From: Thraustochytrium sp. TN22
Taxonomy: Eukaryota; Sar; Bigyra; Thraustochytrida; Thraustochytriidae
Reading direction: 5' to 3'
Length of the DNA stretch: 29,571 bases
Assembly (NCBI GenBank): GCA_013306675.1
Contig: JABLUY010000346.1
Location: 1-29,571, forward strand
Shown here: in pieces, positions 5,743-23,625 of the stretch
Layout of the letters: the number at the start of each line of letters is the position of its first letter
Position numbering within the stretch: the stretch's first letter is position 1
Translations under genes and position numbers: made by a program
The notes under the pieces: model-generated
Databases searched by the model: none
Seen by the model: only the letters and a program-made list of their open reading frames with translations
What the model was told of the DNA's origin: nothing

Positions 5743-8085
5743 TCACCAGAACCAATTGGTGACAGCGACACGGCCATGAAAGGATGGCCGCACCTCGTGG
5801 TCCAAGAGGCCACTAAGGAAGAGGACCATGCGCCCTGGCTTGGGCCTGAGATCCAAAACGGGCTCTGACGGCAGGTGGCTGAGCCAGAGTCGAAGCTGCG
5901 TATGATCGAGCGAGCGAGCGAGCGAGCGAGTGCGTCAGTCGGTGCGTGAGTCATTGCTTCCTTCCAGTGTCCTGGGTCTCGTTGTTCCATGTTGAAAATG
6001 GAGGCGCGGACGCGCGCGCAAACGTACCTTTCCTCCGTGGGACTCGTCCCAGGATGGATTGCAGTAGCAAATGGCGGTGAGACGGCGATTGTCGGAGGTC
6101 TTGGCGCCATCGTCCGGGGTGGCGTCGCGGTGGCGTCGGTAGCCCTCGCCCTGGTCGGGGTAAAATGCGAGCTGCGCCTCGCGGCCGCCCTGGAGCTTGA
6201 CGACGGCGCCGGCCTCCTCGTAGAGCTTGGTGAAGCGGTCGAGGACGGGGGCAAAGGGCGCCCTGTTCCCCGGGGCAACCTCTCGGTTGAGCCAGAGGAG
6301 ACAGTCGCCGCGCGCCGAGGGCGGGTCGCCGCGCGTCATAAAGAAAGAGGAAGGTTCTGGGAGGTCGAGCTTTTCGAGCTCGTCCGCCGGGAGGTTGAGC
6401 ACGGAATGCGTCATCTTGACGAACTCGAGGCACTGCTGAAACACGGCGCGCACGGCGGCCTCGTCAAGAAAGTCGTCGACGACGCAAAAGCCGTTGGTGT
6501 AGAGACTGGCGACGCGCTCGGGCGTGAGCAGCTGGTTCCCGGCGACCTGGGCGACCTGGCTCGCGGCGCTCCAGTGCGGGAAGCGCAGGATGCGGCTGCA
6601 AAAGGCGAACTGGTTCTCGACCAGGTTGACGATGCCGTTGAGGGCGTCCTGCTTGAGGTGGTAAAAGTCCTCGCTGCGCGAGGACCCGGACAGGATGGCG
6701 AGGCGCTCGGCCACCTCCTCGGACTCGAGCGGATCGTCGCCGTTCTCGACCTCGACAAAGTCGGCGTCCTCCATCTTCTCGTTGCCGTCGTCGGTGGTCT
6801 TGCCGCCTCTGCTGGCGGGCGTGGCCTGGTTTGCCGCGGTGGAGTCCACCTCGCTGGCGGTCTTGGACCCGGCCACATACATCTCCACGTCCTTGTCCTC
6901 GTCCTGCGGGGCGGCGGCCGAGGCGGCCGAGGCTGCCGCGGCGGCCGTCGCCGCGGCCTTGACGCCGTCGCTGCCGGCCGTGGGCAGGCCGGCATTGCCC
7001 GCGCCGTCGCGCGGCGCGCGGCCGGCAGCCAGCGCGGCGGCCGTGCCGGCGGAGGCCGAGGCGCGGCTCGCGCGGCGGCGCGTTGGCGCGCTTGCTGTTG
7101 TGGAGGCGGCGGCGTCGTCCATGTCAGTAGCGGCTTTCGCAGCCTTGGCGGCGGCGAAGGGCCCGCTGCCGCCGCCGCCGCCGCCGCTGCCGCCGCCGCC
7201 GCCACCGCCGCCGCCGCTGCCACCGCCCATCAGCCCACCACTGCCGCCGCCGTTGGCGGCCGCCCCGCCGGCAGCGTCAGCCGCGACCTCGTTGCTGGCG
7301 GCGCTGCTGGCGCGCGAGGGCTCCTCGAAACGCTCGCGGCGCGCCTGCTTGAGCTGCGGCTGCGGCGTGTCGTCCATGCTGACGGTCTCCTCCGCGTTCT
7401 CCTCGCTGCCGTCGGCCTTAAGCTCGTTGTACAGGCTGTCGCGGTCGGCGTCCACGTCAAGATCCTGGTCCGCGTCCATGTCCTGGTCCGCGTCGACGTC
7501 GTCGAGCTCGGCGTCCGAGGAGGTGCCGGCGCCGCGCCCCAGGTAGACCTGGCGCTGGCAGGCGCGCGCCGCGTCGGCGAGCGCGGGCGGCACGTCGAGC
7601 GCCGCAATACAGGCCTCGGAGCTGCGCTGCATGAGCTCGGAGAAATCGGGCGGCAGCAGCTTCATGCAGAGCGAGTCGACGACCATGGATCCGACCTGGT
7701 GCGCGCTCCGGTACGTGAGCAGCGCGGCCAGCTTCCCGCGCAGGAAGAAGAGCTGCACGAGGATCTCCCACTCCTGCGCGGTGTAGGGCGAGAGCGCGTT
7801 GTACCGCTTGCTGAGCGTCGCCCACGGGTGCACGACTGCGATCGTGGGCCTCGCCAGGAACTCGTCCGCGTCGTGCACGTCGTAGCTCGCCGACGCCGCT
7901 CGCATCAGGTGCGCCACCACCAGCGCCAGCACGCGGCACGTCGTGCGCAGCGCCTGCGTCTCCGCGGCGCCCAGGTGCCCCAGCACCAGCCCCAGCGCGC
8001 GCCCCGGCACCACCAGCAGCAGGCTCGCGCTGCCCCGCGCCAGCGCGCCGCCGCCCGCCGCGCCGCCCGCCGCGCCGCCCGCCAT
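5743..8085 (-). CDS. F-box-like / prolyl 4-hydroxylase (EGLN/Skp1-type) fusion, two exons
   Basis: CDS is complement of join(5743..5895, 6028..8085), 736 residues. The start is the first ATG, at 8085; frame upstream of it lacks ATG. Residues about 21-60 resemble an F-box (helix, VPGRALGLVLGHL, then LRTTCRVLALV), followed by a conserved-looking helical region to about 200. The middle (about 200-480) is disordered: Asp repeats, Gly runs, Ala runs. The C-terminal 2-oxoglutarate/Fe(II) oxygenase domain has the HxD motif (HRD, H652 and D654) in a YPDQGEGYRRH context, the strand LTAICYCNPSW, GGKLRLW across the splice junction, the distal His in DHEVRP (H719) and the 2-oxoglutarate-binding Arg in HGRVAVTNWF (R728). 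All catalytic residues are present. The family hydroxylates prolines of HIF-alpha or, in Dictyostelium and Toxoplasma, of Skp1 as an oxygen sensor. The F-box assignment is weaker than the oxygenase. Confidence 0.88.
5896..6027 (-). other. Intron of F-box/P4H gene (132 bp, GT-AG)
   Basis: The donor GTACGT follows GGAGGAAAG, and the acceptor is ATACGCAG. The junction is phase 0 and restores GGKLRLW, a conserved strand of the oxygenase. The intron contains six GAGC repeats (5907-5930). It separates the HxD-bearing exon from the distal His and Arg, so the unspliced frame would lack a working active site. Confidence 0.9.
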
Positions 8086-9220: not shown

Positions 9221-9810
9221 GTCACTAAAGTAGATCGAGGACTTGTTTTGGTGAGAACAAGAGGCCACTGGCATAACCCTAGTCACCTGACCGGCGACTG
9301 GCGTATTGGGTCCTTGGGCCGCCGTTGTGAGGCCTTGTGCCCGTCCCGATGCCGAGCCTTGGGCCGGGCCGGTGCGTGCTGGAGCAGCTCGCAGAGCTTG
9401 CGAGGCGGCGGAATTCTTTGAGAAGACCTCCAAGCTTCGCTCAAAGCTCGGCCTGGCCGCTGTCCTCGGCAACCTTGCAGCTGCTGGCAGGAAGGGCCTG
9501 AGACACAGGTCAAGCACCTCAGCGGGCGCTGTCATGAACAAGAGCGAGCAAGCGTGGCGAGCGAAGCGGAGCGGCATGCCTCGCTCGAAGCTTGACGGCT
9601 CGCGTTGTCACGCACGCTAGAGAGCCATGCCTTTCATGCCATCGTCACTCGAGATTTGGCTGGCTGACAGGCCGTTGCTTTTCCCCTCAGATTCGACCTC
9701 GGCATGGCCATGCCATACGCTCTTCGATGAGTACGGTAGGCACGCGTACCAAGTCCGACTGCTCCTGGTCGGTGTTCTTTCCATGCACTGCTACCAGGCT
9801 GGTCGCCGAG

Positions 9811-9970
9811 AGCACCAGACCGCACAAGGCCGCACAAGTCCGCACAAGGCCGCACAGGGCCGCACAAGGCCGCGCAAGGCCGCACAAGGTCGCGCAAAGC
9901 CGCACAAGGCGGCGCAAGGCCGCACAAGGCCGCGCAAGGCCGCACAAGGCCGCTCAAGACCGCAAAAGAG
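9811..9970. repeat. 10-bp tandem array with 20-bp higher-order unit
   Basis: Fourteen copies of a 10-mer, consensus CGCACAAGGC, occupy 9821-9960, with one degenerate copy at each side. From 9861 the copies alternate between CGCACAAGGC and CGCGCAAGGC types, giving five 20-bp dimers. The 10-bp period is close to one turn of B-DNA. All six frames are open or nearly so, producing 10-residue periodic peptides that are probably not translated. Confidence 0.9.
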
Positions 9971-10181
9971 CTTGGGACTCGGCGTCCTCGGATCCACTGC
10001 AAGCTCCTCTCGAGTCACGCTCAAGCCGCGCCCGGCCGCAGGTCGGGTATGATCTCGCGCTCGAGTCCGGCTTCATCTCGCGATCGAGCATCGCCATCGG
10101 GCTCTTCTCGCGCGTGTCATTGGCATGTGAGCGCCGCGAGCTTCGAGTCCGCGTCGCGCCGCGTCTGAGTCGCGCTTGGTC

Positions 10182-10216: not shown

Positions 10217-11368
10217 ATGGAGCCGCGCGACCCGGCGGCGGCGGCGGCGGCGGGCGAAGCGGCGCGGGGCGCGGCGAGCGACCGCCCGGCGTGGTCCGTG
10301 ACGCTTCGCAGCGTGAATGGCGGCGGCGACGTGCGCTCGACCGTGGGCGTGGCCGACGCCGTGGTGAGCACGGAGGACGTGCAGGCCGCGGCAGAGGAGG
10401 TCTTCGGCTGGCACGACGCGCGCATTGTGCACGAGGGCCGCGTCATGTGGCCCGGCATGCTCGTAGACCTGCGGGAGTCCGCCTCGGTCTTCGTGGCCGT
10501 GCCGAGGCGGCCGTGGTCCGCGGCAGCACCCGAGGCGCCGCAGCTGCCGCGCGACGGCGAGGGCCGCGCGCACGGCGGCGCGGCCTCGCTCGAGGGCCTC
10601 GCCGCCAGGGCGGCCTCATGGATGTCGCCGCCCAGCGGCACGGCGCAACACGACGCCGAGGACCTCGCGTGCCGCATCTGCTTCCAGGGTGCCGAGGATG
10701 GCAAGCTCATCTCGCCCTGCATGTGCCGCGGCACGATGCGCTTCGTGCACGTTGAGTGTCTCAACAGCTGGCGCCTGCGTGCGCCCAACCAGTCGGCTTA
10801 CTTCCAGTGCTCCCAGTGCGGCTTCAAGTACCTGTTGGCAAGGACCAAGGCGGCCGACCTCATTGAGCTGATTTCCAAGGACCGCGTCTGCGCCTTTATT
10901 GCTGCCACGCTCCTGCTCGTGTCCGTGCTGGCAGCCACCTCGCTGCTGCGCATCACACACACCGAGGACCTCGTGAGGGCATATGTGCGAATGCCAGTGT
11001 ATTATCGCGGGTCGAGTCAGGTCCTTGCGAGCCTCCAGACGGCCGTCGACGCGGTCTGGGCGGGCCTCGCCGTGGTTGGCGTTGTCGGCGCGCTCGTCCA
11101 TTTTGCGCACATCATCGACGAGCAGTACTGGCGCATTCGCCGTCATGTCAATCTCGTCGAGTTCTTCTGGTCCAACCCGAATGTGCTCTTCCTCGGTGCG
11201 TCACTCGCCAGCCACAGTCAGGATTCTCTCTCGCGCACCCTCCTTGTCATTGGCCTGGTCTACTGTAATGTGCAGCTCTATCACCATCTCAAGCGAGGCG
11301 CCGTCTTTTTGCTTCAGACCTTTGGCGAGCGGATCCTCGAGCCATGGGCAAACGGCAGCTCCACATGA
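10217..11368 (+). CDS. Membrane RING-CH (MARCH-like) E3 ubiquitin ligase with ubiquitin-like N-terminus
   Basis: 383 residues, ATG at 10217 in CCCATGGAG context. Residues about 26-96 look like a ubiquitin-like beta-grasp fold: strand WSVTLRSV, helix STEDVQAAAEEVFG, then ARIVHEGRVMWPG and the final strand SVFVAV. The RING-CH (C4HC3) finger spans about 152-201: CRIC, CMC, HVEC and CSQC in the right order and spacing. Three or more hydrophobic segments follow (about 225-244, 278-300, 340-356), so it is an integral membrane protein with the finger facing the cytosol. RING-CH ligases pass ubiquitin from an E2 to membrane cargo or ER clients. Substrate and compartment cannot be read from the sequence; there is no signal peptide. 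The Ala-run at the start is low complexity. The finger assignment is firm, the ubiquitin-like part moderate. Confidence 0.88.
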   Translation: MEPRDPAAAAAAGEAARGAASDRPAWSVTLRSVNGGGDVRSTVGVADAVVSTEDVQAAAEEVFGWHDARIVHEGRVMWPGMLVDLRESASVFVAVPRRPWSAAAPEAPQLPRDGEGRAHGGAASLEGLAARAASWMSPPSGTAQHDAEDLACRICFQGAEDGKLISPCMCRGTMRFVHVECLNSWRLRAPNQSAYFQCSQCGFKYLLARTKAADLIELISKDRVCAFIAATLLLVSVLAATSLLRITHTEDLVRAYVRMPVYYRGSSQVLASLQTAVDAVWAGLAVVGVVGALVHFAHIIDEQYWRIRRHVNLVEFFWSNPNVLFLGASLASHSQDSLSRTLLVIGLVYCNVQLYHHLKRGAVFLLQTFGERILEPWANGSST

Positions 11369-12418: not shown

Positions 12419-14062
12419 CTATTGCATGTTGTTGAAGGAGAAGCCACCCTGGCCGCCCTGGTTGTCCGGCTGGCCGCCGAAGGGCGCGCCCGGGGGGTTG
12501 CCGCCCATGGGCTGGCCGAAGGAGAACTGCTGGCCCGAGTTGTCCACGTCAGGGCCGTCGTCGAGGTAGTCGTCGTCGGACTGGAAGTAGGTGTTGTAGA
12601 TCTTGGTGGCCTTCTCGGCGACGTCGCTGTCGGAGGACTGGGTGAGCTCGAAGATGCGCTCGTCGCCCTGCTCCTCGATGATGCTCTGCGCGAACTGGTT
12701 GACGCCGGTGGTGGCCTTCTCCTGCTCGCCGACCTTGAGGATGTTGTCAAGGCCCTCGAGCGCGACCTTGCGCACGCGCTCGTCCGGGAGCTGGATGAGG
12801 TCGCAGTAGGGGCGGATGCAGCCGGCCTTGACGAGCACCTTGATCTGCTCCGGGGTACCGCCCGAGGTGGCGTTGGAGATGGCCCAGGCGGCCTCCTTCT
12901 TGATGTCAAGCTCCTCGTAGTCGAGCATGTAGATGAGGATGGGGATGATGTTGCCGTCGATGACAGCCTGGATCTGCTCGCGGCTGCCGGCCGTGATGTT
13001 GGAGATAGTCCAGCAGGCCTCCTTGCGGATGCCCTTGCGCTCGTGCGTGAGCAGCACGAGCAGGTGCAGGAGCGCGCCGTTGGCGACCACCACCTGGGTC
13101 TGCAGATCGTCGCCCGTGACAATGTTGCCCACCGTGCGCAGCGCCGGCGTCTTGACGACGGTGCTGACGTGCATGAGGAGCTCGATGCAGCGGCGCACGA
13201 CGCCGCTCTCGATGACCGCCTGGATGTTCTCGTTGGGGCCGTCCGAGAGGTAGGAGAGCGCCCAGCAGGCGTCCGTGAGCACGTCGACGTCCTTGGAGTA
13301 GATGAGGTAGGCCAGCGAGGCGAGCGCCGGGCGCACCGTCTCAAAGTCCGGGGGCGGCCGACCGCGGCAGAAGTTGGAGAGGGTCCAGGTGGCGTTGCGC
13401 AGCATGCTGAGCTTGGCGCGGTCGTTGATCTGCGCCAGGAGCGCCGGCAGCGCGCCGCAGTCCAGCACCTGCTTGCGGCACTCGTGGCCGTCGCCGGCGA
13501 TGTTGCCGAGGGCCCAGACGGCCTGCTCGCGCACGTCCTCCTCGGGCGAGGAGAGCAGCTGCACGAAGATGGGAATGGCGCCGGCCTGGATGACCATCTT
13601 GGTCTCCTCCGGCGTGCCACTGGCGATGTTGGTGAGCGCCCAGGCGGCCTCGAACTGCAGCCGCGGGTTGTCGTTGCGCTGCAGGAACTGCACGAACCGC
13701 GGCACCACGCCGCTGTCAATCACGTTCCGGATGGGCGGGTCGTGCTCGATCGAGAGCAGCCGCCGAAAGTTCTTCGTGTGCACCAGCCACTCCTGCGGGT
13801 TGTTGGACATGACGCCCTGCACGTAGATGGGGATGTCCGCCTGCCGCGGCTGCGGCGCCGCGTTCCCGCCCGCGCCGCCGCTCGCCATCTCCGAGGGCGC
13901 ATTCTCGCGCCGCCGCTGCCGCAGCCGGTCGGCCTTCTTCTGCTTGCGGATCTGCACCGACGTCTCCTCGCGCTGCTTGCGCGCCTCCAGCAGGTCCACG
14001 CCGCCCTTGACGCTCTCGCCCGTGCCGCCCTGGCCGGCGCCCAGGTCGTTGAACGCGGACAT
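12419..14062 (-). CDS. Importin subunit alpha (karyopherin alpha)
   Basis: 547 residues, ATG at 14062 in GAGGATGTCC context; the frame upstream is low-complexity leader. The N-terminal importin-beta-binding domain (about residues 26-55) has the basic helix [20 protein letters not shown] followed by RQRRR. About ten armadillo repeats follow, recognisable by the W-x3-N ladder that binds nuclear localisation signals: [53 protein letters not shown] and [12 protein letters not shown]. The C-terminus has the acidic DDDYLDD patch and a Gly/Phe tail (FSFGQP, GGFSFNN) as in plant importins alpha. Length is typical. It carries classical NLS cargo with importin-beta through the nuclear pore and is recycled by CAS. 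No intron is seen. It diverges from the methyltransferase gene across about 950 bases. Confidence 0.98.
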
Positions 14063-16342: not shown

Positions 16343-16750
16343 GGCAACCATCGTTGTTGTTACGCTTATTCCTCGTTGAGCTCGCTAATCATTGCGCCCA
16401 CCCACTCTTCATAGTCTGTCATGGTCCGTTGCGGACCATCTGCTGCATTCAATGCCGCTCGTTCCGACATCGTATCTGCTCTGAGATACCACCCTGCTTG
16501 TGGAGCAGCGAACTGGGCGAGGAGCTCCGTTTCCACGGTTTTGTCCTAGCAACCATCGTCACTGTCCTCGATGAGCTTGCTGGTCGTCGCGCCCGCTCTT
16601 CATCGTTAGTCAGCGCCTGGTGCGGGCCTTTGCTGGTCTTCTAGCTTCGCGAGTCGCTCGTCCTGACGTCGCATCTGCTCCGAGATGCTGGCCTGGAGAG
16701 CAGTGAGCTGGGTGAGGAGCTCATGTGCCATGGGTCTAGCCAAGCTCCGA
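16343..16750. repeat. Degenerate tandem duplication spanning the channel gene's 3' end
   Basis: Two diverged copies about 200 bases apart: about 16343-16547 (beyond the stop codon) and about 16548-16750 (which includes the last codons of the channel gene). Matching blocks are CAACCATCGT, CTCGTTGAGCTCGCT with CTCGATGAGCTTGCT, ATCTGCTCTGAGAT with ATCTGCTCCGAGAT, and GAACTGGGCGAGGAGCTC with GAGCTGGGTGAGGAGCTC. The outer copy keeps a minus-strand open frame of 59 codons (16366-16545, ending ISELNEE) next to a TAG that could also serve as a splice acceptor. Confidence 0.7.
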
Positions 16751-19371
16751 TCTTGATCCAGCTGCGAGACCTGTGCGGCTGATTCCGAGGAGACGAGGTC
16801 GTCATCGTTGCTACTGTCATCGTCCTCAGTGGCACCGATGAGCTCGTTCACCTCGCGCTCGGCATCCGTGGTGGCCCCTGCCTCCCCGGCAACGCTGGCG
16901 TGGCGAGCATGGGTGATACGGTCGAGGGAGGTAAGGCGCGCGGTGGCGCGGGTGGCCGCAGCATCAATGGTACGCACCGACTTGTTGCTGCTGAAGGCGG
17001 TTGATTCGGCACCATCGTCGACGACATTAATGCTGTCGCCGGAAACCGAGCGCTGCCGGTCAGGCGCTCCACGGTTGCGCCCAAAGATAATTGACCCTGT
17101 GCCGGTCTTGTTCTCCGGTCGGCCCTTGGCGTCCGAACGCGGCCCCTTGCGATTCGCGCTGAACGAGATCTGCGCCTTCCCGCTATTGTTGATCGAAAGC
17201 GAGCTGTTGGAGCCAGACTTGCGCGCCGTCTTCTCCTGCGCGCGGCGGGACGCGACGCCGCGCATCGTCTTGAGCACTTCAGGCGAGTCGCTGACGCAGG
17301 ACTCAAAGGCCTCTTTTGTGAGCGTGAGCGTCTGCACGACGTGCGAGACGGCGCGCACAGACGCGCCGCGACGGTCGCCGTAGAGCAGCGAGCCCTCGCC
17401 AATGAAGGCGCCCGGACCGCGCGAGACCACAAAGTAGCTGTCACTGATGATGTCGTCAAAGTCCATGCTGGACACGTCTTTGCAACTGCCGCGGTAGGCG
17501 AGGACGTCGATGCGGCCTTTGATGATGAAGAAGAGCTCGCGGCCCTCGTCGCCCTGACGCATCAAAAAGTCGCCCATGATGAAGATGTTTTGCGTGAAGC
17601 GCATGACGACCCGCTCGAGCAACCGCTGCGAGCAGTGCGTGAAGATGGGCACGGTGCGCACGAGGTCCATATAGAGGAAGACCATGATCTCAATCTGCGC
17701 CGACTCCGGCACGCCATCCATGACGTCGCCCACCATGACCTTGCGCAGCTGCCAGGTCGCTTCGTGGTAGTGCACGAGGCGGTCCCGGATAAAGCGCGGC
17801 AGGTGGTTGGCGCGCACAAAGTCATCGATACGCGAGACGCGGTCGTTGTACAGGTTGCGGTTCCGGTCGCGCTCCTGGATCAGGTTTGTGAAGGTACCAA
17901 AGATGGACGCGTACATGATGGACCCAAAAAACATGGTCACAATGGCAAAGAGGCGCTCCCAGGCGCTGTGTGCCGCGATGTCGCCGTAGCCCACAGTCCC
18001 GAGCGTCGCGAAGGCCCAGTACAGCGAGGACAGGTATTGGTACACCATGGGCTGCTCTGCCATGCCGGTGGCCACCACCCAAATGCCGCCGACAATGGCG
18101 GCCGACTCCTCACCGCCGCCTCCGGCAGCCATGGCCAACGTCTCGCTCTCCAGCTGGAACTTGCCCAGAGCCAAGAACATGCAGCCGATGACGTGTGCCA
18201 TAGCGAGGAAGGTGCCCAGCAGCTTGATAATGCGCGCGTAGCCGGAGATACCCATTTCATCCAGCTTCTTGACGACGCGCGTGATGCGCGCGAGCTTGTT
18301 GAGCTGCAGCCACAGTAGCATGCGCCCTGGCAGAAAGTTGCCGATCAGCACCTCGAGCGGCAAGCAAGCCAGAAAGTCCACAATGAACCACGAGTTGAGG
18401 TAGTGCCGGATGATTTGCCGAATGTCTGTCACTTCGTAGCGGTCCTCGTCCAGGTACGCGCAGCGAAAGTTGAGAAAGACGTCAATCACGAAAAGTGCGT
18501 CCGTGGCAGAGTCCACCACGTCGAAAAAGACGATCGCCGTGACCTCTTGCGGGAAGGCCATTTGCAGCGGGATGAGAATAATACTGTAAAAGGTGAGCAC
18601 AATGATGACCCAGTCCCACACATACTTGTACCGGTTGTCGTACTCGATCACGCCAAAGACGTAGCTGAAGGCGCGGCTGCGCGAGCTCTCAAGCAGCAGG
18701 TCAAGCTGCGCGCCATCCAGCAAAAAGGATCGCTTCCCTAGCGTCCTTCGTATCGACTGCACTGTGGTCGTCCTGCGCGCAACAGGCTTCTCGGGCTCGG
18801 CGGCCTGACCGGTCGTCTCCTGCACGCCACCTCGCGGGCTCGGCGGAGGCTGCTGGCCCGAAGGCGCGCTGCTGGCAGCCGACGGAGCCTCGGACCCGAG
18901 GCGCACGCTAAACTTGCGCTCTAGGTCCCGAATCTTGTCCTCCGCGAACTTGCGCTGGTCCAGGTCATCGTCCCCACGATGCGGGCGCGCCGACGCCGGT
19001 GCATTGGCGTGGCGGCGCCACTTGACCGCCGCTCTACGTGCAGCGATGACGGTGTTTACCGAGGTCACTTCAGAGCTACGCAAGGTACGCTGCATCGCAG
19101 GCCCGCCCTCGGCGCTGCTCTCGTCGCTTTGCTTGCCCAGACGGTTCTGCTGCTCCACCGCTTGTGCCTTTGACACAAGCATCCGCAGGCTTGTGTCCAG
19201 GTTGAGCGACACGCGGGCGTCCAGGGGCCTCGCCGCCGTCTCCGAGACGGCTTCGGCGAGCACGGAGACCGAGCCATCGTCCTCCTCCTCCCCTCCCTCC
19301 TCCTCCTCTTGAAGCGCGCCGCTCTCTCCGGACGGGAAGACCTTGTACGCCGCGCCCGACGCATGCACCAT
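16606..19371 (-). CDS. Voltage/cyclic-nucleotide-gated potassium channel (CNG/HCN/EAG superfamily)
   Basis: 921 residues, ATG at 19371, single exon. Cytosolic N-terminus (1-235) with an acidic Glu run. Six transmembrane segments lie at about 252-500. S4 (about 350-370, MLLWLQLNKLARITRVVKK) has few, spaced positive charges. The pore has TLGTVGYGD (457-464), the K+ selectivity filter. A C-linker (500-575) leads to a cyclic-nucleotide-binding domain (about 576-695) with the phosphate-binding cassette IGEGSLLYGDRRGASVRA. The cassette Glu and Arg are present, but the Thr/Ser that follows Arg in CNG and HCN channels is Gly (669). The tail (700-921) is disordered and ends in a predicted coiled coil (about 880-915). 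It should pass K+ across a membrane, plasma or ciliary, under voltage and cAMP/cGMP control. The last codons lie within a tandem duplication. Confidence 0.96.
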   Translation of the reverse strand: MVHASGAAYKVFPSGESGALQEEEEGGEEEDDGSVSVLAEAVSETAARPLDARVSLNLDTSLRMLVSKAQAVEQQNRLGKQSDESSAEGGPAMQRTLRSSEVTSVNTVIAARRAAVKWRRHANAPASARPHRGDDDLDQRKFAEDKIRDLERKFSVRLGSEAPSAASSAPSGQQPPPSPRGGVQETTGQAAEPEKPVARRTTTVQSIRRTLGKRSFLLDGAQLDLLLESSRSRAFSYVFGVIEYDNRYKYVWDWVIIVLTFYSIILIPLQMAFPQEVTAIVFFDVVDSATDALFVIDVFLNFRCAYLDEDRYEVTDIRQIIRHYLNSWFIVDFLACLPLEVLIGNFLPGRMLLWLQLNKLARITRVVKKLDEMGISGYARIIKLLGTFLAMAHVIGCMFLALGKFQLESETLAMAAGGGGEESAAIVGGIWVVATGMAEQPMVYQYLSSLYWAFATLGTVGYGDIAAHSAWERLFAIVTMFFGSIMYASIFGTFTNLIQERDRNRNLYNDRVSRIDDFVRANHLPRFIRDRLVHYHEATWQLRKVMVGDVMDGVPESAQIEIMVFLYMDLVRTVPIFTHCSQRLLERVVMRFTQNIFIMGDFLMRQGDEGRELFFIIKGRIDVLAYRGSCKDVSSMDFDDIISDSYFVVSRGPGAFIGEGSLLYGDRRGASVRAVSHVVQTLTLTKEAFESCVSDSPEVLKTMRGVASRRAQEKTARKSGSNSSLSINNSGKAQISFSANRKGPRSDAKGRPENKTGTGSIIFGRNRGAPDRQRSVSGDSINVVDDGAESTAFSSNKSVRTIDAAATRATARLTSLDRITHARHASVAGEAGATTDAEREVNELIGATEDDDSSNDDDLVSSESAAQVSQLDQDRSLARPMAHELLTQLTALQASISEQMRRQDERLAKLEDQQRPAPGAD

Positions 19372-20027: not shown

Positions 20028-21911
20028 ATGGCCTTCGTCCATCGTACGACGCGCGAGACGTGCCGCATCGACGGCTTTGTGCCGACGCAGAGCAGCAGCG
20101 CGAACATCGGGCCGGGCCACTACGACTACACGGCCGGCCTGGAGCTGCAAGAGCAGCGCACCAGGGCGCAGTCGCGTGCGCCGTTCTCGTCGACGTCGAC
20201 CCGCGACGGACCTCGCCCGCGATATGCGGTGCCTGGGCCGGGGCACTACGACGCTGCGGCGCCACAGGCTGCGGCGCAGACGTCCGCGGCGAACGGGTGC
20301 CAGGGCGCCTTCAAGTCGCAGACGAAACGCTTCCAGGGCTCCAACCGCGATGCTGCCGAAATGCCGGCGCCGGGCCAATACGAGGTGAGCTCATCGCCGT
20401 CCAGGGCGGCAAAAGCGGCACGGCGCTCGTTCGTGCGCGCCGTGCCGTCGGCCGAGACCTCTGCCGCCATCCTGGAGGCGCTTGACAGCAAGGCTGCTGC
20501 AGCGCCGTCCATCCCGTCCGGCGACCTGGTGCATGGGTACGTGGCGGACGCGCGCGGGCGGCTGGTCCCGCGCAAGAAGCGGGCCTCGAGCGCAAGTGCG
20601 AAGACCGCCGGGGCCCCCGGGCCGGGCCAGTACGAGGTGGCCGCGGCCACGTCCACGTCGACGTGGGCGCACGCCCGGGGCGCGGTCTCCTTCGCGAAGC
20701 AGGAGTCGCGCGAGAGCGCGCAGCAGCACCGCAAGCGTACAAGCTCGGTTCCTGGCCCGGGCCACTACGACGTCGCGGGCGCCGAGGCGGTGGTGGCCGC
20801 GGCGGTGGCCGCAGCCCGGGCCGCCGCCGCTTCGAGCGCCGCAGCCTTCGCGTCCACCGCTCAGCGCAGCGCAGGTGCGCACAAGCACGCGGCGGAGCTC
20901 CCGGGCCCTGGCCAGTACGCCGTGCACGAGTTGGCCTCGAAGCAGTGGATCAAGGGGTCGGCCAACGTGCAGTCCAAGGGGTTCGGGAGCACGTCGACGC
21001 GGTTCGGGAGCGGCGCGGCGGCCGCCGCCGCAGCGGCACGCGCGCCACAGGAGAACTTCAACCGGGGTCCGGACTACATTACGCCGCCCAGCAGCTTCGT
21101 GGACACGTGGAAGGCGCGCGCCTCGCTGGCGGCGCAGACGCCGGGCGTGGGTTTTAGCTCGAGCTCGGCGCGCATGCCAGCGCCGCGGCAGCAGGACGTG
21201 GTTCCGGGCATCGGCCATTACCGCATCCCCGGCATGACGGACGAGATGCAGCTGAGCCTGGCGATGCAGCCGACGCGCAAAAACGCGCCCTTTGGCACCT
21301 CGAGCCGGCGCTTCCCGAACAAGCGCGAGCCGCCCGTGGAGCAGACAAGCGCGGAGGAAGAGCGCCTGCTGCAAATCTCGCGGAGACGCTCAGCACACTC
21401 GTCCGCACGCGCGCGACGCTGGGGGGCGACGGCTGGCGCCGCCTCTACGAGCGCGGCGTACGGGTCGGTCTTCAAGTCCAAGACGGAGCGCTGGGCGTCG
21501 TCAGCGACGCGGGCCGGGCCCGGGCCGGACCCGGGCGCCTACGACGTCGAGCTCGTGCACAGCCTTGCCGCGGAGGTGGCCCGCCGTGGCGCGAATGGCA
21601 AGGGTAGCATGGAGACGGGGACGGATCGTTTTCGTTCGCGGCGTCGCGAGGAGGCTGACGTGCCTGGACCCGGCCAATACCACGTGGAGCGCAATGCATG
21701 GAGGCGGCCGCGGCGATCGGCGGCCTCTCGCCGTCCGCCGGCGCCGGAGACGCGGTCTTCTGCCACCGCGTCGGCTCGGCGCCAGGAGTCAACGCCGGGC
21801 CCCGGCCAGTACCACTCCACGGATGCGGCTTCGAGCCTGCTCAAGCCGACCTATAACCTCTCCATTGCCGTCGAGGAGGAGCGCGCCCTGCAGCGTCTGG
21901 GCATGTTGTAG
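20028..21911 (+). CDS. Sperm-tail PG-rich repeat (STPGR/SHIPPO) ciliary protein
   Basis: 627 residues, ATG at 20028 in ACGATGGCC context, TAG stop. Ten PG-x-G-x-Y repeats are visible, among them IGPGHYDY, VPGPGHYDA, APGPGQYEV, VPGPGHYDV, LPGPGQYAV, VPGIGHYRI, DPGAYDV, VPGPGQYHV and TPGPGQYHS. Between them are FKSQTKRF-, FGSTSTRF- and FKSKTERW-type blocks, the usual partner of each repeat (F-x-S/T-x(2)-R-F). The C-terminus (KPTYNLSI) also resembles STPGR proteins. Family members bind axonemal microtubules, often as microtubule inner proteins, so a role in the flagellum of a motile stage is likely. Ala-rich inserts are low complexity. It diverges from the channel gene. The exact orthologue is not assigned. 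Confidence 0.92.
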   Translation: MAFVHRTTRETCRIDGFVPTQSSSANIGPGHYDYTAGLELQEQRTRAQSRAPFSSTSTRDGPRPRYAVPGPGHYDAAAPQAAAQTSAANGCQGAFKSQTKRFQGSNRDAAEMPAPGQYEVSSSPSRAAKAARRSFVRAVPSAETSAAILEALDSKAAAAPSIPSGDLVHGYVADARGRLVPRKKRASSASAKTAGAPGPGQYEVAAATSTSTWAHARGAVSFAKQESRESAQQHRKRTSSVPGPGHYDVAGAEAVVAAAVAAARAAAASSAAAFASTAQRSAGAHKHAAELPGPGQYAVHELASKQWIKGSANVQSKGFGSTSTRFGSGAAAAAAAARAPQENFNRGPDYITPPSSFVDTWKARASLAAQTPGVGFSSSSARMPAPRQQDVVPGIGHYRIPGMTDEMQLSLAMQPTRKNAPFGTSSRRFPNKREPPVEQTSAEEERLLQISRRRSAHSSARARRWGATAGAASTSAAYGSVFKSKTERWASSATRAGPGPDPGAYDVELVHSLAAEVARRGANGKGSMETGTDRFRSRRREEADVPGPGQYHVERNAWRRPRRSAASRRPPAPETRSSATASARRQESTPGPGQYHSTDAASSLLKPTYNLSIAVEEERALQRLGML

Positions 21912-22053: not shown

Positions 22054-23625
22054 TTAGCTCGGCGTGGCAATGGTGGAACGGCCGCCAACATCGTCCATCT
22101 CCACGTCAGACTCGCGGTCCGAGGCGCCGCCGCCCGCTGCGTCGTCAAAGTAGGAGTCCGCAGGTGGATCGTCCTCCGGTGCCGCATGACCCCCGCCGCC
22201 GCCGCCGCCACCACCACCACCACCACCACCGACGGCAGCGCCGCTACCATGGGCTGCGTTGGTCTTGCCACCATAGACCTGGCCATTGCGCTGCAGATTG
22301 GTGCGGAGGATGGTGGTTTGAAGGTCCAGCGCAAAGCGCCGACCGACCTTGAGCGTGTCCTGGAAAGCCTGGCGGCGCGCATCGCCGCGGCTCATGTCGA
22401 GAAAGCCGGCCTCACAGTCGATGGTGGCGTGGATGTCACCATCCACGATGAGGCGCGCGAGGAGGCGCTCGATTTCGCTGCGCGGCTGGTCAAAGGCGTT
22501 GGCCAGAAGGTCAAGCGAGGCGGAGGAATAGGGCTGGACGTACTGCTTAAGGCAGCGGCGCTTGATGCGGTCAATGAGCGTGGCGATGCAGGGCTGCAAG
22601 AACGGGTCAATGTTGGCCCGGGCGCGCAGCATGTCCAAGCCGTGCGCCAGCTCCGTGTAGCGGCAGGCGACGAAGTCATGGAGGAGCTCGCGCACCGCCG
22701 GCACGGTCTCGAGCATGGAGCGGAACACTGGGTGCGCAAGCACCTGAGTGCGCAACTCGTGTCGCTCAAAACTCGCGAGCGCGCAGACGCCACCGTAGAC
22801 GGCCACGTCCTCGCAGGTGACGACGTCGTTGAAGCTGTCGGCAAGCTCGGGGCCGACCAGCAGGAAGCTCTCTGCGGCCGTACGCAGGTCGGTCTGCTGA
22901 AGGCTGGCGAGGCCCGAAGCCGTGTGCAGCTGCGCGCGCGCCTGTGCGTGCTCCTGCTTGTCATCGGGCGTGTTGAGCCCGCGATTGACCCAGGTCGGCA
23001 CGTTGGCAAAGTTGCGCGCACCAAGACTGGCGCGTACGATCCTTACGATCGTGTCCAGGGTGTGCGAGGTGTCAGAGCAGTAGTCGCGCGTCCTCGTGTA
23101 GCACTTGAGCGCCTCGTTGAAGGTGCCCAGGCGATAGTACAGGTCGCCCACGGCATTGTGGCACATGCGAATCTTCTCTTTGACCATCTCGCTCAGGGCC
23201 GCCTCCAGCTCCGCTTTCAGGCGGCCAAGCTCCGTTTCCAGCTCGCGTTGCCGCTCCTCGGCCCAGTTCATGTCCGGCGCTCGCGCGGTGCCGAGCTGCA
23301 GCTCGCTCTGTAGCGTTGCAAACTTGGCATACGCCTGCGGGACATCGTCCTGCCGCGTGCACTGCAAGCCCAGCAGCACCACTTGTCTCGCTAGCTCCGC
23401 ATCCTGCGCCGCCCTCGCTGCGTTCAGGGCAGCCTCCAGCCGCTGCACGCGCGTGTAGCCTCTGTATTGCGCCAGCGCCTTTTCCACGCTCGCGGCGTCT
23501 AGTACGCGAGTCGCTCCCGGCGTCATGGAAGACGACGACGACGACGACGACGACGAAGACGACAACGACGAAGAGGAAGACTCCGCCGCGCCCTGCTGCA
23601 CCTGGCCCGTTGCGGCGCTCGCCAT
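22054..23625 (-). CDS. CSN1: COP9 signalosome subunit 1
   Basis: 523 residues, ATG at 23625 in GCGATGGCG context. Residues 16-33 are a Ser run. Helical repeats of the RPN7-type domain follow (about 45-290), including KIRMCHNAVGDLYYRLGTFN and ALKCYTRTRDYC. The segment DVAVYGGVCALASFERHEL is a strong CSN1/GPS1 signature. The PCI domain (about 300-420) contains KQYVQPYSSASLDLLANAF and IERLLARLIVDGDIHATID. The tail has a Gly run of about 15, then an acidic end (SDRESDVEMDD). CSN1 is the scaffold subunit of the COP9 signalosome, which removes Nedd8 from cullins and so controls cullin-RING ligases. The proteasome lid paralogue RPN7 is the alternative, but the FERHEL segment and the C-terminal part fit CSN1 better. 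It diverges from the LC8 gene. Confidence 0.93.
   Translation of the reverse strand: MASAATGQVQQGAAESSSSSLSSSSSSSSSSSSMTPGATRVLDAASVEKALAQYRGYTRVQRLEAALNAARAAQDAELARQVVLLGLQCTRQDDVPQAYAKFATLQSELQLGTARAPDMNWAEERQRELETELGRLKAELEAALSEMVKEKIRMCHNAVGDLYYRLGTFNEALKCYTRTRDYCSDTSHTLDTIVRIVRASLGARNFANVPTWVNRGLNTPDDKQEHAQARAQLHTASGLASLQQTDLRTAAESFLLVGPELADSFNDVVTCEDVAVYGGVCALASFERHELRTQVLAHPVFRSMLETVPAVRELLHDFVACRYTELAHGLDMLRARANIDPFLQPCIATLIDRIKRRCLKQYVQPYSSASLDLLANAFDQPRSEIERLLARLIVDGDIHATIDCEAGFLDMSRGDARRQAFQDTLKVGRRFALDLQTTILRTNLQRNGQVYGGKTNAAHGSGAAVGGGGGGGGGGGGGGHAAPEDDPPADSYFDDAAGGGASDRESDVEMDDVGGRSTIATPS

Follow-up and report, generated by a model that had tools for sequence, protein, structure and literature searches.

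The locus examined here raises the question of whether an oxygen-dependent prolyl hydroxylase may carry its own docking module for the Skp1–cullin–F-box (SCF) ubiquitin ligase. The stretch of DNA that was analysed as a whole (hereafter the window) covers positions 1 to 29,571 of contig JABLUY010000346.1 from Thraustochytrium sp. TN22, and the gene of interest lies on its minus strand at 5743..8085, where two exons encode a protein of 736 amino acids. Its C-terminus is assigned by sequence comparison to the prolyl hydroxylase domain (PHD)/EGLN class of 2-oxoglutarate oxygenases, and its N-terminus holds a short segment that resembles the F-boxes of the same genome. In Dictyostelium and Toxoplasma a hydroxylase acts on Skp1, the adaptor of the ligase. 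We tentatively read the protein encoded in the window as a Skp1-docked PHD-type prolyl hydroxylase with a client other than Skp1, and not as PhyA, and we give this reading slightly less than an even chance. An earlier annotation, made by a model from the letters (the original prediction), had described an F-box-like domain fused to an EGLN/Skp1-type prolyl 4-hydroxylase (P4H), and the parts of that claim fared differently.

Gene structure

The features of the gene are as follows.

6028..8085, minus strand: exon 1 (codons 1-686), with the F-box-like N-terminus, the helical region, the low-complexity linker and most of the oxygenase
5896..6027, minus strand: intron of 132 bp, GTACGT...CGCAG, a sequence-based join
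5743..5895, minus strand: exon 2 (codons 687-736 and TGA), with H719, V721, R728 and the C-terminal end of the oxygenase; the PF13640 match runs to residue 736
7936..8010, minus strand: F-box-like segment, residues 26-50, VPGRALGLVLGHLGAAETQALRTTC, from its match to the own-genome F-box consensus
7531..7905, minus strand: region of residues 61-185, helical in a low-confidence model and without Pfam or PDB match
6646..7530, minus strand: acidic and Gly/Ala/Ser-rich linker, residues 186-480, read from the translation
5746..6174, minus strand: 2OG-Fe(II) oxygenase core, residues 638-736, split by the intron (PF13640, PF13661 and PHD/EGLN chains of the PDB)
6124..6132, minus strand: iron-ligand motif H652-R-D654 (translation and alignment)
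5791..5799, minus strand: third iron ligand H719, in the H-E-V motif of residues 719-721 (translation and alignment)
5770..5772, minus strand: R728, the expected 2-oxoglutarate-binding arginine (translation and alignment)

The exons, the 132-bp intron and the length of 736 residues that the original prediction had given were all reproduced from the sequence, and H652, D654, H719 and R728 stand in the translation where it had placed them. Among the joins enumerated, only this splice produces a G-G-K-L-R stretch, of which the GG and the L are invariant in 8/8 aligned PHD-like domains. Were the intron retained, the frame would stop at 5935, and both the third iron ligand H719 and R728 would be lost.

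Exon 1 is a single open frame in which third-position guanine-cytosine (GC) content is 0.82-0.98 per block from the ATG on. Second-position GC is coding-like (0.30-0.62) over approximately residues 23-272 and from about residue 373 onward, and it is high upstream of about residue 23 (0.76-0.88) and in residues ~273-372 (0.82-0.88); the reading-frame signal is ambiguous only in the latter stretch, because it is rich in Gly, Ala and Ser. The open frame and the position-specific GC signal therefore make a single polypeptide spanning the N-terminus and the oxygenase much the likeliest product of the predicted gene. An alternative would place the N-terminus and the oxygenase on separate transcripts, or have a hidden intron alter the linker, and it draws on a gene model made from sequence alone and on the weak frame signal in the low-complexity residues 273-372. 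However, 686 codons are open in one frame, the coding signal keeps the same phase on either side of the linker, and the boundary would need to fall in ~300 bp that hold no in-frame stop. Given this continuous frame and same-phase signal, we rejected two separate genes as weak, and we consider a split or mis-joined model very improbable.

Family and active site of the oxygenase

The C-terminal domain is matched by PF13640 (2OG-FeII_Oxy_3) at residues 638-736 (E = 1.5e-18, 68 bits against a cut-off of 27) and also by PF13661 (2OG-FeII_Oxy_4; E = 8.1e-8), and a search of the whole protein against Pfam at E<=10 returned nothing besides these two families, with no JmjC domain at that threshold. Against the PDB, 41 distinct sequences match the catalytic part at E<=10. 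For each kind of PHD the best chain is 6ey1 (TaPHD, 58.4 bits), EGLN2 (55.9), 4iw3 (PPHD, 54.2), EGLN1 (54.1) and 6t8m (DdPhyA, 50.8), where we take 6ey1 to be from Trichoplax, 4iw3 from Pseudomonas putida and 6t8m to be Dictyostelium PhyA, while two chains outside the PHD group are weaker (the prolyl 4-hydroxylase 6iuq with 28.9 bits and OGFOD1, 4nhx, with 16.4). EGLN/PHD2 and TaPHD are thus among the best-matching solved structures, and with PPHD the domain has an FLSG...HEV stretch in common. The complete 2-oxoglutarate oxygenase of the original prediction is borne out by these Pfam and PDB relatives, and the comparison with EGLN and PhyA that it had proposed as a check separates PHD chains at 51-58 bits from another P4H at 29 and OGFOD1 at 16.

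An excerpt of PMC6437050 names five residues as critical in PHD enzymes, in the motifs HxD, HxV and K/R. The window domain keeps 5/5 of them (H652, D654, H719, V721 and R728), and since all five are present it looks like an active PHD-class enzyme. Like PhyA and the PhyA-Gnt1 fusions it belongs to the PHD superfamily with the same HxD, HxV and R.

Phylogenetic placement

The genome (37.9 Mb in 453 contigs) holds 15 matches to PF13640, and the position of the window domain among its relatives was estimated in two trees, a first one of 28 sequences and a second one in which four distant rows were dropped, with DdPhyA in neither. In the first tree the window domain forms a long branch outside the clade that unites EGLN and TaPHD with two further genes of this genome, C85 and C67 (SH-like approximate likelihood-ratio test, SH-aLRT, 86; ultrafast bootstrap 91), and in the second it is again outside the C85/C67/EGLN clade (ultrafast bootstrap 83). 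An approximately unbiased (AU) test of five constrained placements rejected none of them at 0.05 (p = 0.349 with C85, 0.616 in the eukaryote clade, 0.468 with bacteria, 0.521 with C126 and, as the lowest value, 0.067 inside C67/EGLN), so the tree cannot fix the position of the window domain. Unlike bacterial PPHD, the window domain falls outside the bacterial clade in the best trees, with placement there at the AU p of 0.468 given above. From these comparisons the window gene is classed as a further, divergent PHD-like paralogue.

The gene at C67 (15000-20500; match at 17477-18145, plus strand) is far closer to EGLN1 than the window gene is (up to 124.8 versus up to 54.1 bits) and groups with EGLN and TaPHD in the 28-sequence tree (bootstrap 98); for a protist PHD this resemblance to animal EGLN1 is unusual, and a long tail of the protein contains repeats. 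Another divergent PHD-like oxygenase, at C126 (57500-62500), has 38 bits to the window domain and no firm place in the trees.

F-box similarity of the N-terminus

Similarity was measured against the F-boxes of the same genome, with a hidden Markov model (HMM) built from 20 segments, which are the best 20 PF12937 places and of which 13 lie over the Pfam cut-off. With this model residues 15-72 score 12.1 bits, a value reached by 0 of 5000 shuffles of the same residues. The tile control comprised 6729 overlapping, and hence non-independent, tiles of 58 amino acids from 164 coding-like open reading frames (ORFs; 55 own-genome and 109 bacterial, with some overlap), and in it 12.1 bits were reached only by tiles from four F-box loci and the window gene, the next best locus having 9.6.

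A second measure points the same way. Derived from 12 own F-boxes, with the window excluded, a majority consensus reads LPxxVLxxVLxFLxAxDLxxLxxTC, and VPGRALGLVLGHLGAAETQALRTTC (residues 26-50) matches it free of gaps at 9/14 fixed positions. Of 20,000 shuffles of residues 1-185, 0 reach 9 and 20 reach 8, and in the 6011 tiles outside F-box loci (6729 minus 197 from the window's own loci and minus 521 F-box-locus tiles, whose best is 8) the maximum is 7, so that again 0 reach 9. At least 9 of the 14 positions are matched by 4/20 own F-boxes, 12 of those 20 having built the consensus. The shuffle figures overstate the evidence, because the protein was picked for looking like an F-box.

The piece of open frame that ranks next after the window gene at 9.6 bits, SLPFSVVCKMAAYLDNNELLRAV, lies in the C375 region near a P4H gene and may be another divergent F-box.

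A number of results weigh against an F-box, and with it against Skp1 docking. At E<=10, residues 17-184 and 17-77 match no Pfam family, the whole protein has no Pfam F-box, and residues 17-184 match no PDB chain. Nor does the window appear in the genome-wide lists for PF12937 (31 places, E<=1) or PF00646 (18 places, E<=10), in which scores are given just to the top candidates from an initial screen. When each of the 20 own F-boxes was left out of the model in turn, the left-out segments scored 12.7-40.3 bits, and the window gene with its 12.1 is below all of them; across the 20 leave-one-out models its residues 15-72 scored 8.8-13.4 bits. The longer stretch of residues 1-190 scores 8.0 bits, which 3/2000 shuffles reached (1848 scored). 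Helix 3 of the F-box and the Leu-Trp that follows it are missing, with the HMM match ending at residue 58, and single-sequence AlphaFold2 modelled residues 15-75 as one unbroken helix (predicted local distance difference test, pLDDT, 81.5; predicted template modelling score, pTM, 0.50; no true F-box control). Finally, the fusion is known here from one genome.

The same program gave an unusable model for residues 1-185 (pLDDT 42.5), and an F-box fold is supported by neither of these two models of the N-terminus alone. A search of the own genome with the N-terminus returned, besides itself, one weak match at C401 (E = 0.143, query residues 114-164), which contains an internal stop. For the F-box-like N-terminus of the original prediction the outcome is therefore divided: the own-genome consensus and HMM beat shuffles and control tiles, but the proposed comparison with F-box profiles gave no Pfam F-box match at E<=10, and there is no PDB match.

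These results bear on a different explanation, namely that the N-terminus is not an F-box and that the gene encodes a plain divergent PHD-like hydroxylase, whose Ala/Leu-rich helical N-terminus would serve localisation or substrate binding and would have no Skp1 link. The lack of Pfam or PDB matches, the HMM score under every left-out F-box, the single modelled helix and the lack, elsewhere in the genome, of another N-terminus convincingly like this one all agree with it, whereas the gap-free 9/14 consensus match, with its shuffle and tile controls, does not. We regard this as the main rival and as quite plausible, if short of probable. That the N-terminus is F-box-derived or binds Skp1 is, from these similarities, about an even matter.

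Comparison with F-box dioxygenases and other hydroxylases

Fusions of an F-box with a dioxygenase are already known. JcdI is reported, in the portion of PMC9485057 drawn on here, to be O2-dependent, to bind Skp1 and to alter oxygen responses on overexpression; the same portion states that the effect of JcdI overexpression on O2 sensitivity is independent of its F-box, which counts with the points against an F-box-based role in the window protein. FBXO13 of Toxoplasma is described in an excerpt of PMC11570480 as a JmjC enzyme and predicted lysyl hydroxylase. The level of JcdI in Dictyostelium is suggested to be set by SCF (PMC9485057, in part), and likewise that of FBXO13 in Toxoplasma (PMC11570480, in part).

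The genome has its own example of this architecture. At C134 (43000-46000) one frame of 583 amino acids combines an F-box-like match with a JmjC/cupin_8 domain (50.6 bits), as in JcdI and FBXO13. Its F-box scores 22.1 bits in a single-protein Pfam search, below the cut-off of 24.3, and 26.3 in the genome-wide list. Since Pfam sees the F-box of C134 but none in the window gene, C134 serves as a positive control for F-box detection, and by its predicted domains it is also an in-genome precedent for F-box plus dioxygenase.

Like JcdI and FBXO13, which belong to the JMJD6 group of JmjC proteins, the window protein joins an F-box-like N-terminus to a dioxygenase; unlike them, it has a PHD-type prolyl hydroxylase in place of a JmjC enzyme, and its F-box-like part is far weaker than that of C134 (no Pfam match versus 22.1 bits). 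With a PHD-type hydroxylase the fusion would be new if the F-box holds. Among the open-access matches listed, no title or abstract opening reports a fusion of F-box and PHD-type prolyl hydroxylase, an absence that is not proven.

Other PHD proteins offer further points of comparison. In TgPhyB and the group B PHDs the PHD domain is C-terminal in a longer protein; group B PHDs carry a 120-aa D2 domain, and catalytic residues are substituted in group B3 of stramenopiles (all from an excerpt of PMC6437050). The window gene likewise has its PHD domain at the end of a longer protein and, unlike stramenopile group B3, keeps all five catalytic residues. For bacterial PHDs, EF-Tu is given as a substrate (PMC6437050, same excerpt).

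Skp1 and its candidate hydroxylase

On C48 the genome encodes a Skp1 whose sequence ...NDFTPEEE... contains the acceptor proline as Pro153; the human protein has Glu at this site. The part of PMC7864055 drawn on here numbers the site Pro143 for Dictyostelium and Glu147 for the human protein. Whether the Skp1 of this organism keeps the acceptor proline had been named by the original prediction as a point to check, and it does. A second, weaker Skp1-like ORF lies 1.2 kb off (both within C48:53608-55097); read by eye it has LTQEQE, with Gln at the acceptor site, and would appear to escape hydroxylation.

A gene at C85 (56500-61500; 57730-59037, minus strand) encodes a PHD domain and an N-acetylglucosamine (GlcNAc) transferase in one open frame of 857 amino acids, with 71.5 bits to PF13640 and 156 bits to PF11397 (Gnt1-type). 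A PHD and a GlcNAc transferase in one gene is the arrangement of many PHYa genes (PMC6437050, in excerpt), and this predicted PhyA-Gnt1 fusion is likely the Skp1-modifying enzyme of the organism. Unlike PhyA-Gnt1, the window gene lacks a GlcNAc transferase domain. The C85 fusion has the architecture known from Skp1-modifying enzymes and fits the role of Skp1 hydroxylase better, and we rejected the window gene as the obvious holder of that role.

The model of the original prediction, in which the enzyme is held on Skp1 by its F-box-like part and hydroxylates the acceptor proline of Skp1 itself, has to be weighed at this point. A Skp1 with acceptor proline is encoded in the genome, the oxygenase is in the PHD class, which includes PhyA, and the AU test leaves the grouping with C85 standing (p = 0.349). 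However, the role is already fitted by the C85 fusion, the best trees put the window domain outside the C85/C67/EGLN clade, and the geometry of an F-box on Skp1 is fixed and would not, alone, be expected to deliver the C-terminal proline into the active site. We consider this model improbable. Of the claim that the enzyme is of PhyA type, the PHD class and the presence of Pro153 in Skp1 stand, while the identity as PhyA is opposed by the C85 fusion and the best trees.

Proposed function

We return to the tentatively favoured reading, a Skp1-docked hydroxylase with another client. The protein would consist of a divergent F-box-like helix pair at the N-terminus, a long low-complexity linker and a PHD-type hydroxylase at the C-terminus. 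The N-terminus would dock on Skp1, which would put the hydroxylase inside an SCF ubiquitin ligase or next to it, attached by the long flexible linker. There the enzyme would hydroxylate a proline in a client or neighbouring protein, in a reaction that depends on O2 and 2-oxoglutarate. By analogy with what is suggested for JcdI and FBXO13, the level of the enzyme itself may be set by SCF. Of the oxygen-sensing SCF component in one polypeptide that had been proposed originally, the PHD/EGLN-class oxygenase stands, most likely in one polypeptide with the F-box-like N-terminus, while the F-box part draws on weak similarity. That a PHD/EGLN-class hydroxylase is itself an F-box protein, combining O2-dependent client marking and Skp1 docking in one molecule beside the PhyA-Gnt1 and JcdI-type enzymes, seems to us possible but rather doubtful.

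In animals, oxygen is sensed by one protein, the hydroxylase PHD, and the resulting mark is read by another, the ligase VHL (PMC11192375, in excerpt). If the reading is true, a hydroxylase that itself carries the module for docking on Skp1 would add a third arrangement to that of animals and that of Dictyostelium and Toxoplasma, and its client could be sought simply, by Skp1-dependent proximity. One genome has Skp1 in forms that keep and that lack the acceptor proline, a PhyA-Gnt1 fusion, an F-box-JmjC protein and an EGLN-like PHD, which makes this a useful organism for assigning roles to these enzymes.

Other genes and features of the window

Two matches from viral_contigs were set aside and not used, one within a small ORF that by eye resembles a further 2-oxoglutarate oxygenase and the other to a short ORF that runs antisense to a longer frame. 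In the window itself the following further features were noted.

9700-10050: tandem-like stretch with AAQGRTRPHK-type repeats, readable in several frames
10217-11368, plus strand: RING-variant (RINGv) protein, a candidate E3
12419-14062, minus strand: importin-alpha type protein with IBB and eight Arm stretches
16606-19371, minus strand: ion channel with a cyclic-nucleotide-binding domain
20028-21911, plus strand: SHIPPO/PG-rich repeat protein
22054-23625, minus strand: protein with RPN7 and PCI domains (PF10602, 136 bits; PF01399, 60 bits)

The SHIPPO/PG-rich repeat occurs in flagellar proteins. From its RPN7 and PCI domains, the gene at 22054-23625 encodes a subunit of the proteasome-lid or COP9-signalosome type.

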